This document shows, in pieces, positions 801 to 6,180 of a DNA stretch of 6,614 nt (positions are counted from its first letter, which is position 1; every line of letters starts with the position of its first letter). The notes under the pieces are model-generated. The model ran no database searches, was not told where the DNA came from, and saw only the letters and a list, made by a program, of their open reading frames with translations. The stretch is from a bacterium. Lineage in GTDB: Bacteria; Blakebacterota; Blakebacteria; Blakebacterales; Blakebacteraceae. Location of the stretch: positions 1-6,614 of the forward strand of contig JALGVQ010000156.1 of assembly GCA_025774615.1 (NCBI GenBank), in the 5' to 3' direction. The position numbers and the translations under genes were made by a program.

Positions 801-1376
801 TCAGACATAGAGGGATATGTCATCCTCCTGGTGAGTAAGGATATTGCGTAGAGCAGCGCGAGCATTGTACAGCCGACTGGCGATCGTGCCGGGGGCGATT
901 TTCAGGATCGTGGCGATCTCGCGGTAACTGAGTTCCTCGATGTCCTTCAGAATGAGGATCTCGCGGTGAAGCCTCCCGAGACGGTTCAGGGCCTCCCGGA
1001 GATGCTCACGGGTTTCACCCTCGATCGCGGCCTGGTCGGGCGCCGGGCCGGGATCGGGGAGCATGGACAACGGTTGGGAAGTCCGAGTACTTTCACGGTC
1101 ACGACCGTTCCGGGAGCGGAGCCGGTCCACATGCAGATTCCGGGCGATCATGAAGAGCCAGGGCACCAGGGGGCGGTCAGTGCAGTAGAGGTGGAGGCGG
1201 TAGTAAGCCCTGATGAAGGTATCCTGGGTCAGATCCCGGGCCTCGTCGGTATCCCTGATGAGCCCGTAGAAATACCTGAAGAGGCGTCCTTCAAGGGCTC
1301 GCACGATAGGTTCATAGGCCTCACTTTCCCCCGCCTGGCACCGCTCGAGTAGGCTCCGTTCTTCATCCCGGTTCAT
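801..1376 (-). CDS. RNA polymerase sigma factor, ECF (sigma-70) family
   Basis: This 191-residue protein has the two-domain layout of an ECF sigma factor. Region 2 covers about residues 10-85, with the core-binding motif DLTQDTFIRAYYRL followed by PWLFMIARNLHVDRLR. A Pro-rich linker follows, then region 4 at about 124-178, whose helix-turn-helix reads LSYREIATILKIAPGTIASR. It should direct RNA polymerase to a small set of promoters. The frame is open back to 1466, but ATG 1376 is preferred: GAGAGGAAGG lies about 9 bases upstream, the sigma domain begins shortly after it, and the longer version would overlap the preceding gene. No classical anti-sigma factor is encoded next to it; the neighbouring four-helix membrane protein is the only local candidate for a membrane-bound regulator, without direct evidence. 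It lies 43 bases downstream of that gene, consistent with one operon. Confidence 0.93.
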   Translation of the reverse strand: MNRDEERSLLERCQAGESEAYEPIVRALEGRLFRYFYGLIRDTDEARDLTQDTFIRAYYRLHLYCTDRPLVPWLFMIARNLHVDRLRSRNGRDRESTRTSQPLSMLPDPGPAPDQAAIEGETREHLREALNRLGRLHREILILKDIEELSYREIATILKIAPGTIASRLYNARAALRNILTHQEDDISLYV

Positions 1377-1419
1377 CAGTCGGTGCCTTCCTCTCCGCCA
1401 TGAAAGGTCTGAAGAAGTT

Positions 1420-1989
1420 TCAAGGTGCCCTAAAGGAGAAGAAACGGCGTTCGAAATTCCAGCCAATCAAGAGCACGAAAAACATATATGCCATCGCATA
1501 CCATCGAAGCTCGACACCCGAAAACTGCCTTATCGCTATCAACAGGACCACCGAGATAGCTACACCGACTCCCCGGAACACAAGATTTCCGGATACCAAC
1601 CCAATCGCGGCGGGAACCGCGATAGCGAATATAACGAGTGCGATGGTTGTGAAGCCTGCAGTCCAGAGGCCTGAGTCCGAAGCCATCAACGTGCCAAGAA
1701 CCAGTATGGTCACTGCGACACCCCAACGAATTTTACCCATCTGTATCTCCTTTTCAAGACTGCGAGCGAGTAGAGGTGGAACAGACTCGGCCACCTGCCA
1801 CCAGAACCAACAAAGAGCAGCCCTTCGGCCTCTTCGAGGCAACACAACTGTGTCGACCTCTTCGATCAGGTCGCCGACGAACTCCTCTCGACGATTCTCA
1901 GGGAAGAGACATCTCAAAAGAAGTCGTGACACCGGGCCGGGAAAGTGAGGACCAAGTGCCTCGTGCTTGAAAATTTCAGCCTTCTTCAT
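1420..1989 (-). CDS. Four-helix membrane protein with a permease-prefix-like N-terminal domain
   Basis: This 189-residue protein has two parts. Residues 1-80 are soluble and amphipathic and contain LLLRCLFPENRREEFVGDL followed by a Trp-rich WFWWQVAESVPPLL. This resembles the N-terminal prefix found on MacB-like ABC permeases encoded beside PadR regulators. The rest is hydrophobic, with four probable membrane helices at about 88-104, 112-132, 138-155 and 163-178, ending in a basic tail. It lacks the large periplasmic domain and FtsX-type region of a real permease, so it is not a transporter by itself. ATG 1989 overlaps the PadR stop codon in ATGA, which implies translational coupling, and a GGAG site lies 8 bases upstream. 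Function is unknown; a membrane sensor or partner for the adjacent sigma factor is conceivable. Confidence 0.8.
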   Translation of the reverse strand: MKKAEIFKHEALGPHFPGPVSRLLLRCLFPENRREEFVGDLIEEVDTVVLPRRGRRAALCWFWWQVAESVPPLLARSLEKEIQMGKIRWGVAVTILVLGTLMASDSGLWTAGFTTIALVIFAIAVPAAIGLVSGNLVFRGVGVAISVVLLIAIRQFSGVELRWYAMAYMFFVLLIGWNFERRFFSFRAP

Positions 1990-2330
1990 AAACCCATCTC
2001 CATTAGCTGTGCAAACTGCATGAGACCATCCCGCATGCGGTCCAGTGAATTCAGGGTGCTCCTCAGTGCACGTTCTCCCTCGGATTCAACCATGAAGAAT
2101 CTCTTGGCTCGAACACGGTGCACCCCATCAGACTGTCCGAGATGGGAACTTATGAGACCCTTGCTTTCGAGGCGATCAAGAGTCGCATATATGGCCCCGA
2201 GCGATACTCTGCGATCAGCCCTCTCCTCGATTTCACGTCGTACCGTCATCCCGTACGCACCTTCACCAAGCCGAAGCAAGGCAAGAATGACAAGCTGTTC
2301 GAATTCACCTAAGTTATTTCCCTTGGGCAT
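1986..2330 (-). CDS. PadR family winged-helix transcriptional regulator
   Basis: The 114-residue product is a near-complete PadR protein. LGEFEQLVILALLRLGEGAY opens the winged helix, YGMTVRREIEERADRRVSLG continues it, and GAIYATLDRLESKGLISSHL is the recognition-helix and wing signature. A C-terminal helix of about 25 residues should serve dimerisation. PadR proteins usually repress their own operon and release it on ligand binding. I prefer ATG 2330 over the upstream ATG 2339 because AAAGGA sits 8 bases before 2330 but runs into 2339. It is first in a leftward operon and overlaps the membrane-protein gene by 4 bases. Palindromes at 2354-2383 just upstream are a plausible autoregulatory operator. 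The family call is firm; ligand and regulon are unknown. Confidence 0.93.
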   Translation of the reverse strand: MPKGNNLGEFEQLVILALLRLGEGAYGMTVRREIEERADRRVSLGAIYATLDRLESKGLISSHLGQSDGVHRVRAKRFFMVESEGERALRSTLNSLDRMRDGLMQFAQLMEMGL

Positions 2331-2353
2331 GTGCGACATCCTTTATACTATTA

Positions 2354-2383: not shown

Positions 2384-2474
2384 GCATTGAAGTTTCCTGT
2401 CAACAGCATTCTGCCCGTAAGAAAAATCTGTGGGCATCGAGAAATGAGTTCTGACGATGTACAGGAGAACACTC

Positions 2475-3818
2475 ATGGGATATCGATCCCGATATATCTT
2501 CACGCTGGCCCTCATGATAGCTGTGGTTGGTTCGACGACAGGTTCTTCACAGCTGAGGGATGGGAAGATCATCGTGGTCCCGGACGATGCTCTGATCATC
2601 ACCGGCGGCACAGTTCTGGACGGCACCGGAAGGATCCCGATTCCGGAGGGTGTAGTTGTGGTGGAGGGGAACCGTATCGTGGCGATTGGCAGTGAGGCTG
2701 ACTTGCGCATTCCCTCATCAGCCAGGGTGCTCGACGCCCGGGGTGGTACCATCATGCCGGGAATAATCAACAGCCATGTCCATCACGGGGCGCCGGCCGC
2801 ACTGCGTCATCAGTTCCTCATGGAAGGGTGCACGACCATCTGCGATCTGGGCTCTGAACTCGGTGAGATGTCACAGTTCACCGAAACGAGCTGCAGCGAA
2901 GGCCCGGCTGCGCGCGGCCTGCGGGCGGGGCCAATCATTACTGCACCGGGCGGCTATCCCGACGGTCTGTACGGAACCCGCATTAACTATGAAGTGGCGA
3001 CTCCGGACGAGGGGAGGACAGCTGTACGCGACCTGGCCGGACGCGGTACTGACGTGATTAAAATCGCGCTCGATCCGAGCTGGAACTTCGATAATCCTCT
3101 CCCGGTGCTGGATCTGTTAACGGTCCAGGCGATCGTGGCCGAGGCTCACGATCACGACCTGATTGTCCGCGCCCACCTAATTCAACCTCCGCAACTAGCG
3201 CTGGCAATCGCTGGCGGCGTGGATGTGGTTGAGCATCTGGCCATGCCGCGATGGCCCGCTCGGGAGGAAGTGGAACGCGTGATGGCCAGCGAAAACCCAA
3301 TCAGTCTATTCTTCGACCGCTGGGCTCCTGAATACCAACCTCAGCTCGAACACATGGCCGAACTAGGCATGGCCATGGTACCAACAGTCAGCTCTCTCCT
3401 GCGCGAGGAATACACCAAGGCTGATCCAACTCCGCGGGAGTCCTGGGTTGTCGATGTGGTCCTGGACATCGTTCGCCGGTTCCATGAGGCGGGGGGTACG
3501 GTAGCGGTAGGCAATGATTTCAATGATCGCTCTACGAAAGAACGCCTGCCCCTCCTGGAAATGGAGATGCTTCTGCAGGCAGGTCTGTCATCGATGGATG
3601 TCATCATCGCCGCTACCCGTAACGCCGCCCGGGTCTGCGGAGTTGCAGCTGAACTCGGGACCCTCGAGCCCGGTATGCTGGCCGATATCGTCGTTGTGGA
3701 AGGTGATCCTCTGACCGATCTGATCGGAGCTCTGGGACGGGTGAGGATCATCATCAAGGACGGGGTGATCGTCCACGATTCAGATGCGGATCTCTCCGGT
3801 GACCGGGGATCCCGATAG
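2475..3818 (+). CDS. Exported metal-dependent amidohydrolase
   Basis: This 447-residue protein belongs to the amidohydrolase superfamily, which hydrolyses C-N bonds in cyclic amides, imides or peptides using one or two metals. AGGAG (2463-2467) lies 7 bases before ATG 2475, so I use this start rather than the in-frame ATG at 2457. An N-terminal Sec-type signal peptide (about residues 1-25, core FTLALMIAVVG) suggests the periplasm. The small beta domain starts at ALIITGGTVLDGTG. Metal ligands are recognisable: HVHHG (His101, His103), DVIKIALD with Lys196 as probable carbamylated lysine, His234 in VRAHLIQP, His254 in VVEHLAMP, and Asp348 in VAVGNDFND. The end (LGTLEPGMLADIVVVEGDPL) is the typical closing strand region. 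It resembles imidazolonepropionase-like and prolidase-like members; the substrate cannot be told. It is transcribed divergently from the padR operon. Confidence 0.92.
   Translation: MGYRSRYIFTLALMIAVVGSTTGSSQLRDGKIIVVPDDALIITGGTVLDGTGRIPIPEGVVVVEGNRIVAIGSEADLRIPSSARVLDARGGTIMPGIINSHVHHGAPAALRHQFLMEGCTTICDLGSELGEMSQFTETSCSEGPAARGLRAGPIITAPGGYPDGLYGTRINYEVATPDEGRTAVRDLAGRGTDVIKIALDPSWNFDNPLPVLDLLTVQAIVAEAHDHDLIVRAHLIQPPQLALAIAGGVDVVEHLAMPRWPAREEVERVMASENPISLFFDRWAPEYQPQLEHMAELGMAMVPTVSSLLREEYTKADPTPRESWVVDVVLDIVRRFHEAGGTVAVGNDFNDRSTKERLPLLEMEMLLQAGLSSMDVIIAATRNAARVCGVAAELGTLEPGMLADIVVVEGDPLTDLIGALGRVRIIIKDGVIVHDSDADLSGDRGSR
3788..3812 (+). terminator. Hairpin at the end of the amidohydrolase gene, weak terminator candidate
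   Basis: GGATC (3788-3792) pairs with GATCC (3808-3812), and TCCGG (3795-3799) pairs with CCGGG (3803-3807) around a TGA loop, with a 2-base bulge between the two helices. The stem ends just before the TAG stop codon. The following bases are T-rich (ATTTAGGTATTTTC) but not a proper T-run, so termination is only a possibility. Confidence 0.3.
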
Positions 3819-4073
3819 CGATTTAGGTATTTTCAGCTTGTCCCCCCGAATAATCCCGTCTGCATTGAACCGTAACAAGATACACGTATTCTGTCGCTTC
3901 TGTTTCATGCTCCAATTAACGGGTCGTTCACCAAAACTCTTCTCAGGTAGTTTTGACGGTATAGAACGTTGTGGATCCCCGCTACCAATCTAACCTGCGA
4001 CGCCGGCCAGGTTGTTTCCCGGCCGGCGTTACTGTGTGATTGAGCTGCTCCCCCGCTGCGTACCTGCGATAAC
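3819..4073. other. Intergenic stretch with a strong GC-rich hairpin and no supported gene
   Basis: I find no convincing coding sequence or tRNA here. Short open frames lack ribosome sites and recognisable content. The one clear structure is at 4000-4029: ACGCCGGCC (4000-4008) pairs perfectly with GGCCGGCGT (4021-4029) around a 12-base loop. No T-run follows on either strand, so it is not a standard intrinsic terminator. It could be a repetitive extragenic element or a transcript-end structure. Confidence 0.5.
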
Positions 4074-4101
4074 CCTCCTGTAAATATCCAGAGACCATTT
4101 C

Positions 4102-4136
4102 CCGAAATATTATTGAGACTCTCGATAGTATTTCGG
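4102..4136. repeat. Uninterrupted 16-bp inverted repeat with a 3-base loop
   Basis: Bases 4102-4117 pair along their whole length with 4121-4136 around the loop ACT (4118-4120). The outer eight pairs, CCGAAATA with TATTTCGG, are perfect; the inner eight, TTATTGAG with CTCGATAG, include two G-U type pairs. No T-run flanks it on either strand, which argues against a simple terminator. It sits about 40 bases before the start of recognisable dehydrogenase sequence, so it may be a small repeat element, a recombination scar or an RNA structure. Confidence 0.6.
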
Positions 4137-4174
4137 AGGCCTTCCGTTTACTTGGACATCCAGTAACCGCATGC

Positions 4175-4327
4175 GATAGACTCCTGCTCACCGCCCTCCA
4201 GGCACTTCGCGATCAAGGGAAAGTCATGCCGGTCATCGACAGAACGTACCCGTTGAGCGAGACAGCTGAGGCTATCGGTTATATCGGAGAGGGACACGCC
4301 CGAGGTAAAGTCGTCATCACTGCATGA
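4175..4327 (+). pseudogene. C-terminal remnant of a zinc-type (MDR family) alcohol dehydrogenase or quinone oxidoreductase
   Basis: In the frame ending at TGA 4325-4327, the last 36 or so codons read as the typical C-terminus of medium-chain NAD(P)-dependent dehydrogenases: GKVMPVIDRTYPLSETAEAI followed by GEGHARGKVVITA. Similarity probably reaches back to DRLLLTALQALRDQ at 4175. A complete family member has about 320-350 residues, so the whole catalytic domain and most of the Rossmann domain are absent. The frame stays open upstream to a TAA at 4070-4072, but that part does not look like the family, and no start codon with a ribosome site is present. I read it as the surviving end of a deleted or rearranged gene rather than a functional peptide. 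It lies 78 bases upstream of the first selenoprotein gene. Confidence 0.75.
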
Positions 4328-4332
4328 AGAGT

Positions 4333-4398
4333 TGCACCATCGCGCAGGTGCAGGAAAGGTATTCACCAACGGATACAGGTGATCTGAATAACAGGAGG
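4333..4398 (+). promoter_or_regulatory. Leader of the first selenoprotein gene: small hairpin and start-deciding ribosome binding site
   Basis: TGCACC (4333-4338) and GGTGCA (4347-4352) form a 6-bp hairpin with an 8-base loop. Further down, AGGAGG (4393-4398) is a near-ideal Shine-Dalgarno site, 7 bases before ATG 4406. By contrast, ATG 4484 has only GGAAG two bases away, too close to work. This ribosome site is the main reason for starting the gene upstream of the in-frame TGA. I cannot identify a convincing promoter. Confidence 0.65.
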
Positions 4399-4405
4399 AG
4401 ACGAG

Positions 4406-5251
4406 ATGGCAGAAGCACATGTCGATCAATCGACGATGAAAGCAAGGCGCACATTTCTGAAAGTCGGTACGTGATCGGAAGCCATGATCAACGTGCTTGA
4501 TCGAGCCTTCGAACATCCGTTGGAAACCGAGGAACATGCCACCATGCTTCTGGCGGGCGGGATTGTGCAGCATGGCTACCAGTGTGGTCTGGTCTGGGGC
4601 GCGGCGCTTGCCGCAGGGGCACAGGCATATCAACTGTACGGTTCCGGCCCACAGGCTGAGACCGGGGCGATCGTCGCAACACAGCGGTTTGTAGATTCTT
4701 TCCGCGCTCGCAACGGCGATGTTGATTGCCTTGTCCTTTCCGGTACCGACTGGAAGAAACCAACGCAATTTGTATGGAACCTGGTGACAGGCGGACCGAT
4801 TCGCTGCCTGAACCTGACGGCAAGAAATGCCCCGCCAGCATTCGATGTGATAGACGCCGCTCTCTCTGAAGAACAGATCGAAGCACCTGCTCCTCCGGTG
4901 AGTTGCGCGGCAATAGTGGCAGAGAAGATGGGGGCGTCCGACCTGCAGACAGTAATGGCGGCGGGACTGGCGGGCGGTATCGGTCTCTGCGGGGGTGCCT
5001 GTGGCGCATTGGGAGCCGCAATATGGCTCAAAACCATGAACACTCTCGAAGAAGGCATAAAGATCAAATACAAGGACCCTAAAACCAAAGCTGTGATAGA
5101 CAGATTTCTGGAAAGCACTGATCAGAAATTCGAGTGCTCCGAGATAGTCGGACGGAAGTTTGAGAACGTCGATGACCATGCCGGCTATCTGCGCGACGGA
5201 GGCTGCTCGGAATTGATCGAAGTATTGGCTGCTTCAGTATCTGCAGAATAA
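4406..5251 (+). CDS. Selenocysteine-containing C-GCAxxG-C-C family redox protein, copy 1 (TGA at 4472-4474 read as Sec)
   Basis: Reading the TGA at codon 23 as selenocysteine gives a 281-residue protein from an ATG with a strong ribosome site. The family is a small group of putative redox-active proteins named after its thiol pattern; no enzymatic reaction is firmly assigned that I know of. The block RTFLKVGT-U-SEAMINVLD places Sec23 where family members have their first Cys. The protein then shows two copies of the signature. Domain 1 has U23, C60 (in GYQCGLVWGAALAAG), C108 and C134. Domain 2 has C167 (PPVSCAAIV), C199 (CGGACGALGAAIW), C244 (FECSEIVGRKF) and C267 (GGCSELIEVLA). C195 is additional. 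There is no export signal, so it is probably cytoplasmic. A hairpin after the TGA fits a bacterial SECIS. A paralogue follows 92 bases downstream. If TGA were a stop, only a 22-codon peptide would be made from the good start. Production requires SelA, SelB, selC and SelD, which are not in the window. Confidence 0.87.
4472..4510 (+). promoter_or_regulatory. Candidate bacterial SECIS element, copy 1
   Basis: The TGA at 4472-4474 is followed after 17 bases by the apical loop CGTGC (4492-4496). The upper stem pairs TGATCAA (4485-4491) with TTGATCG (4497-4503): six Watson-Crick pairs and one U-G. A lower helix pairs GAAG (4478-4481) with CTTC (4507-4510), separated by small mismatches around one C-G pair. 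Bacterial SECIS elements lie directly after the UGA, have a short apical loop with a G in its first two positions, and start that loop about 16-37 bases after the UGA. All three conditions are met. SelB with Sec-tRNA would bind here. Confidence 0.8.
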
Positions 5252-5332
5252 GCATTCTTGGGCGGAGAAAGGTATCGGGTGATCTGTTGTCTGCCCGAGT
5301 CGAGCTTTCGCTGCAGGTGACGGATTGCGATC

Positions 5333-5338
5333 AAGGAG
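5333..5338 (+). promoter_or_regulatory. Ribosome binding site deciding the start of selenoprotein copy 2
   Basis: AAGGAG lies 5 bases before ATG 5344 and supports initiation upstream of the in-frame TGA at 5410. The internal ATG at 5422 has only GGAAG two bases away, which is too close. The GTG at 5341 is in frame but less well placed than the ATG. Confidence 0.7.
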
Positions 5339-5343
5339 ACGTG

Positions 5344-6180
5344 ATGAGCAAAGGGAACGGCGGAATATCATCGATAGGAACAGCGCGTACCTTCATCAAA
5401 GTTGGTACATGATCGGAAGCCATGATCAACGTGCTTGATCACGCCTTCAAACATCCGCTGAAACTCGAGGAGAACGCCGCCATGCCCTTCAACGGCGGCA
5501 TCAATCGGCAGGGCTATCAGTGCGGCCTGGTCTGGGGGGCGGCGCTTGCCGCCGGGGCACAGGCATATCACGTGCATGGCTCGGGCCCGCAGGCAGAGGC
5601 TGCGGCTATCATTGCCACTCAGAGGCTTGTTGATTCCTTTCGTGCTCAATTCGACAATGTCAATTGCCTCGAAATCACCGAATGCGAAATGCAGTCAATG
5701 ATGCAGATATTCAAGTTCCTGATTAAATCGGGGGCAGGTGTAGGCTGCGTCCGCATGGCCACCAAATATGCCCCGGTTGCCTACCGTGAGATAGATGCCA
5801 CCCTTTCCGAAGAATCGATCGAAGCGCCTGCACCCCCGGTGAGTTGCGCTGCACTGCTGGCACAGAAGATGGGCGCATCCGACCTGCATTCGGTGATGGC
5901 GGCGGGCTTTGCGGGCGGTATCGGCTTATGCGGCGGTGCCTGCGGGGCATTGGGAGCCGCGATATGGATCCATGGGATGAACCGCCTCGAGGAAGGAATC
6001 AGTAACAAAGAACTTCTTTCAAGTGTCAGTGATATGATGGATAGATTCGCCGCAATCGCCGACTATGAGTTCGAGTGCTCTGAAATAGTCGGACGGAAAT
6101 TTGAGGATATCGAAGACCATGCCGGTTTTTTACGCGATGGAGGCTGCTCGAAAATTATCGAAGCATTAGCTGCTGATTGA
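5344..6180 (+). CDS. Selenocysteine-containing C-GCAxxG-C-C family redox protein, copy 2 (TGA at 5410-5412 read as Sec)
   Basis: This paralogue of the preceding gene has 278 residues when TGA at codon 23 is read as selenocysteine, the same codon number as in copy 1. The first 14 residues differ completely between copies, but RTFIKVGT-U-SEAMINVLD matches closely, so selection seems to act on the frame through the TGA. Both four-thiol signatures are kept: U23, C60, C108, C135 in domain 1 and C168, C200, C245, C268 in domain 2; C196 is also shared, and C114 is unique to this copy. The most divergent part is residues 109-147, including one extra residue. The gene ends four codons earlier than copy 1: a TGA at 6178 replaces aligned sense codons, and the position of the copy 1 TAA is TAC here. 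No SECIS-like hairpin follows that last TGA, so I treat it as a true stop. Two related genes in series may give different partners or a heteromer (inference). Confidence 0.87.
5410..5448 (+). promoter_or_regulatory. Candidate bacterial SECIS element, copy 2
   Basis: The architecture matches copy 1: TGA (5410-5412), 17 bases, then loop CGTGC (5430-5434) closed by TGATCAA (5423-5429) with TTGATCA (5435-5441). Here all seven pairs are Watson-Crick, because the G at the stem base in copy 1 is an A. GAAG (5416-5419) with CTTC (5445-5448) forms the lower helix. The sequence from the TGA through 5440 is identical to copy 1, including every third codon position. Confidence 0.8.

Follow-up and report, generated by a model that had tools for sequence, protein, structure and literature searches.

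Two adjacent genes at positions 4406-5251 and 5344-6180 of the window, the whole 6,614-nucleotide stretch of DNA that was analyzed, very probably encode selenoproteins in which an in-frame TGA at codon 23 is read as selenocysteine (Sec). This reading was well supported by the conserved in-frame TGA, an exchange between Sec and Cys among homologues, a constrained hairpin and the presence of a Sec machinery. Based on these sequence comparisons, we hold with high confidence the explanation as a whole, namely that both products are functional selenoproteins and that UGA-23 is decoded as Sec.

Organization and coding evidence of the two paralogous genes

Both genes were located on the forward strand. 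Copy 1 (4406-5251) began at ATG 4406, encoded 281 residues and ended with TAA; copy 2 (5344-6180) began at ATG 5344, encoded 278 residues and ended with TGA. The putative Sec codons were found at 4472-4474 in copy 1 and 5410-5412 in copy 2, where the homologues contained either Cys or TGA, and Shine-Dalgarno-like sequences preceded the start codons (AGGAGGAGACGAG in copy 1 and AAGGAGACGTG in copy 2). A first-pass annotation of the same DNA had described exactly this arrangement of two tandem genes with TGA at codon 23, each with a ribosome site and an ATG, and all of these elements were present. The two proteins shared 63% identity over 269 residues, and neither copy contained a further stop or a frameshift besides TGA-23.

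Both copies scored above the curated cut-offs of two profiles of the C-GCAxxG-C-C family. For PF09719, where the cut-off is 27 bits, the scores were 73.1 and 74.6 (E-values of 2.7e-20 over two stretches for copy 1 and 9e-21 for copy 2), and for TIGR01909, with a cut-off of 47.4 bits, they were 55.4 and 49.7. Each protein consisted of two domains with a four-Cys pattern, in which the second Cys was part of a CGxxxG-type motif. Domain 1 contained residues 23, 60, 108 and 134, where Sec-23 replaces the first conserved Cys, and domain 2 contained Cys 167, 199, 244 and 267. In an alignment of 14 sequences, Cys 60, 108, 134, 167 and 199 were invariant and Cys 244 was nearly so.

The first 14 residues of the two copies were mostly unalike, with 3 identical residues in codons 1-15, and the block around the TGA, RTF[L/I]KVGT-U-SEAMINVLD, was common to both, as the first-pass annotation had noted. 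Codons 15-22 encoded R T F L/I K V G T in copy 1, in copy 2 and in a homologue (L019/L032, labelled Candidatus Zixiibacteriota CSMAG_1180) that belongs to the same family but to a different genus. Five synonymous third-base differences (in the codons for R, T, F, V and T) were found between the copies in this segment, and the L/I exchange was the sole residue change. Such almost exclusively synonymous change is typical of a peptide that is translated and under selection, and it marks the sequence 5' of the TGA as protein-coding.

This observation bears on the possibility that translation begins at an internal ATG and that the upstream part with the TGA is a leader or decayed sequence. A standard-code gene caller did place the starts at ATGs 4484 and 5422, giving ORFs of 255 and 252 residues, and a weak GGAAG was present upstream of the internal ATG in both copies. 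The first-pass annotation had itself raised initiation at these two sites; however, the coding-type evolution of codons 15-22 speaks against these ATGs as the sole starts. Additionally, the internal ATG lies inside a conserved hairpin, it was absent at the corresponding codon in three homologues (L034, L039 and L041), the Cys homologues are translated through position 23 with the Cys kept, and an internal start would leave the protein without the initial Cys of the motif that defines the family. We therefore regard this alternative as very improbable.

Sec/Cys exchange among homologues and a predicted SECIS element

A scan of genome contigs with a single protein revealed no homologue, whereas a profile scan with the alignment identified 11 other MAG loci encoding the two-domain protein at 33-70% identity. 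These loci comprised 12 genes, as L033 holds two copies. No match was found in the plasmids and phages searched, and no homologue was seen in a genus relative (G001) or a family relative (G002), the genomes of which are both incomplete. At position 23, six of the 12 genes had TGA (L032, L034, L036, L037, L039 and L041) and six had Cys (L033 in both copies, L035, L038, L040 and L042), so that eight TGA genes and six Cys genes were present when the window was counted. Every two-domain homologue found thus had one or the other, and those without TGA had Cys exactly there. The tree of these sequences needed four Sec/Cys changes (three to four over the bootstraps), two of which were forced by well-supported branches; we estimate at least two changes, and probably three to four.

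The Acidobacteria MAG locus L033 contained a tandem pair (2981-4792) with Cys in both copies, which indicated that tandem paralogues recur without Sec. The first gene of this pair encoded a twin-arginine-like N-terminus, RRKFLKG. The L032 contig, from the other genus, ended inside the first copy. We also observed a single-domain C-GCAxxG-C-C relative (L024:1273-1914) with TGA at its first Cys and an RRRFLKK N-terminus; the gene 3' of it looked like a GMC-type oxidoreductase.

A hairpin was predicted immediately after the TGA in both copies of the window. In copy 1, the predicted SECIS element spanned 4475-4512 on the forward strand, with arms at 4486-4491 and 4497-4502 and a loop at 4492-4496 (CGUGC), and in copy 2 it spanned 5413-5448 on the same strand, with arms at 5424-5429 and 5435-5440 and a loop at 5430-5434 (CGUGC). 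Both folded as GAUCAA-CGUGC-UUGAUC; the loop lay 17 nt past the UGA and had G as its second base, and the predicted folding energies were -11.9 and -10.6 kcal/mol. A bacterial SECIS model with defined constraints has been published, and the hairpins of both copies fell within it (PMC13188914). We rejected raw folding energy as evidence for a SECIS element, because peptide-preserving shuffles often folded as well, and by folding energy alone most sites were not distinct from such shuffles. The argument for a SECIS element was instead built on synonymous freezing, the position of the stem and the contrast with the Cys homologues.

The longest identical DNA run between copies 1 and 2 (31 nt) began exactly with the TGA, as did the longest run between copy 1 and the other genus (55 nt); the longest run between copy 2 and the other genus (34 nt) started one codon before the TGA. 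When only codons with the same degenerate residue in both sequences were counted, 12 of 12 codons were identical between the copies in codons 24-38, compared with 85 of 141 further on (Fisher p = 0.003), and the corresponding values for copy 1 and the other genus were 14 of 14 and 90 of 140 (Fisher p = 0.003). Two Nitrospirae and one Desulfosarcinaceae homologue (L034, L041 and L039) had GUUGAG-AGUU-CUCAAC at the same place, a stem of different sequence that paired at six of six positions and again had G as the second loop base. In contrast, the Cys homologues paired at merely two to five of the six stem positions. The two other TGA homologues, L036 and L037, had a hairpin with a different geometry.

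These comparisons also leave hardly any probability that nonsense mutations have turned both genes into pseudogenes. The TGA does interrupt each frame, and the adjoining gene for an MDR (quinone reductase-like) protein is a relic; however, TGA was found at the same codon in the paralogue, in the other genus and in other lineages, protein-level conservation extended throughout both otherwise uninterrupted copies, and the synonymous constraint lay exactly downstream of the TGA. The view of the first-pass annotation that the TGA is not a disabling mutation was upheld; its position is more than a coincidence, as the other-genus homologue and five homologues of other lineages carried it at the same codon and the rest had Cys.

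Selenocysteine machinery, proposed mechanism and the neighboring reductase gene

The genome of the window contained a tRNA-Sec (66 bits; called by ARAGORN as tRNA-SeC with anticodon tca, UCA) as well as selA, selB and selD, which were the components that the first-pass annotation had suggested searching for. Among the relatives, selA was found in all 10 genomes tested, and tRNA-Sec was above the cut-off in six of the seven genomes tested, with the seventh (G108) reaching 45.8 of 47 bits. The selD gene of the window's genome (L015:1483-2517) had an in-frame TGA of its own in the motif CAGUASK, so that SelD appears to be another selenoprotein made by this organism.

In-frame TGA codons in otherwise intact genes could also arise if TGA were reassigned to another amino acid or read through without selenium. 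However, TGA acts as an ordinary stop elsewhere in the window, as had been pointed out earlier: it terminates copy 2, an ECF sigma factor gene (801-1466, reverse strand) and a PadR regulator gene (1986-2339, reverse strand). The aligned residue in the homologues without TGA was always Cys, and the Sec system of the genome was complete. We consider reassignment or selenium-free readthrough extremely unlikely. An amidohydrolase gene (2457-3818, forward strand) was also present in the window.

With UGA-23 read as Sec, we propose that the hairpin just 3' of UGA-23 in each mRNA would be bound by SelB carrying Sec-tRNA-Sec, so that UGA-23 would yield selenocysteine and UGA codons at other sites, among them the stop codon of copy 2, would terminate translation. 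We infer Sec insertion in the cell from these sequence features. The products would be two-domain C-GCAxxG-C-C proteins in which Sec takes the place of the foremost conserved Cys in domain 1. Their function would most likely be thiol/selenol redox chemistry, as suggested by the family annotation, which for PF09719 says only that the family is putatively redox-active, and by the conserved Cys residues. Sec-23 would then be the reactive selenol, and Cys 60, 108, 134, 167, 199, 244 and 267 would serve as resolving thiols or metal ligands.

The AlphaFold model had a pTM of 0.84 and a mean pLDDT of 77.5. A Foldseek search with this model gave no PDB match at E <= 0.001, VIA-align gave no confident PDB match (best Z of 3.2), and the sequence comparison with PDB chains gave no convincing match; for a predicted model, this lack of a PDB match would neither show nor exclude a new fold. 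PF09719 presumably resembles the C-terminal part of split-Soret cytochrome c, and no split-Soret cytochrome c chain was among the PDB sequence matches.

The MDR relic (4188-4327, forward strand) had an internal deletion between short repeats, which was evident from comparison with L032: positions 4188-4232 and 4217-4449 of the window matched parts of L032 that are about 0.4 kb apart. An intact MDR gene was found immediately 5' of the homologue in L032, L035, L036, L037 and L038, and none was seen within the fetched DNA of six of the 11 relatives. The intact protein contained ADH_N and zinc-binding dehydrogenase domains, and its best NCBIfam similarity, below the cut-off, was to the PIG3 quinone reductase subfamily. 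The C-GCAxxG-C-C proteins would probably work with this NAD(P)H-dependent MDR quinone/enone reductase, either feeding it or being fed by it; judged from gene order, we consider such a partnership plausible but somewhat short of an even chance. More speculatively, the two-domain proteins may form a distinct Sec/Cys subfamily over several phyla that acts as a redox module with the MDR protein, and in the genome of the window it would have been duplicated to a Sec-Sec pair that, with the neighboring reductase gene lost, could act as a heteromer; we put this forward only as a tentative and rather doubtful proposal.

Significance and comparison with known families and selenoprotein gene pairs

Under the standard code, both genes are cut back to the internal ATG, and the Sec, which is probably the active site, is lost. 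The occurrence of Sec and Cys orthologues in several lineages, together with two different stem sequences at one fixed SECIS position, offers a clean natural comparison of the two residues in a family that lacks an assigned function, and the recurrent MDR neighbor is a first testable lead to that function.

The two proteins belong to PF09719 and TIGR01909, and lists of prokaryotic selenoproteins already contain Sec-bearing members of the C-GCAxxG-C-C family as form 1 and form 2 (PMC13188914, PMC9312934). The family was thus known to include selenoproteins, as the first-pass annotation had stated, and the TIGR01909 name itself includes "(seleno)protein". The proteins of the window apparently differ from the listed forms in having two domains, of which only the first carries Sec, and in being tandem paralogues. 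Domain 1 was weakly similar to the HUGP/GUXX-star fusion selenoprotein (NF045501; E-value of 1.5e-5), which 11 of the 14 alignment members matched; however, the scores of 24.7 and 22.5 bits lay far below the cut-off of 325, and the second half of the proteins described here is another C-GCAxxG-C-C domain. Similarly, domain 2 resembled the DVU_1555 family C-GCAxxG-C-C protein (NF045669; E-value of 9.8e-10), although the scores of 38.3 and 36.6 bits were below the cut-off of 103 and the proteins of the window differ in having two domains and Sec.

In the open-access literature, we found neither a Sec form with two domains nor a tandem pair of Sec paralogues described. The present analysis adds a subfamily of two-domain proteins with Sec or Cys that occurs in several phyla, a pair of Sec genes in tandem, and a quinone reductase-like gene that recurs directly upstream. 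The first-pass annotation had placed the novelty in the tandem two-domain pair; this stood insofar as no such pair was found described, but adjacency of selenoprotein genes as such was already known. Neighboring selenoprotein genes have been reported as Prx/SelW pairs (PMC2398784), and selenoprotein operons as grdA-grdB, Tso and SAO (PMC13188914). These systems resemble the present locus in that at least two selenoprotein genes lie side by side; in contrast, their adjacent genes belong to different families, whereas those described here are paralogues of one family.
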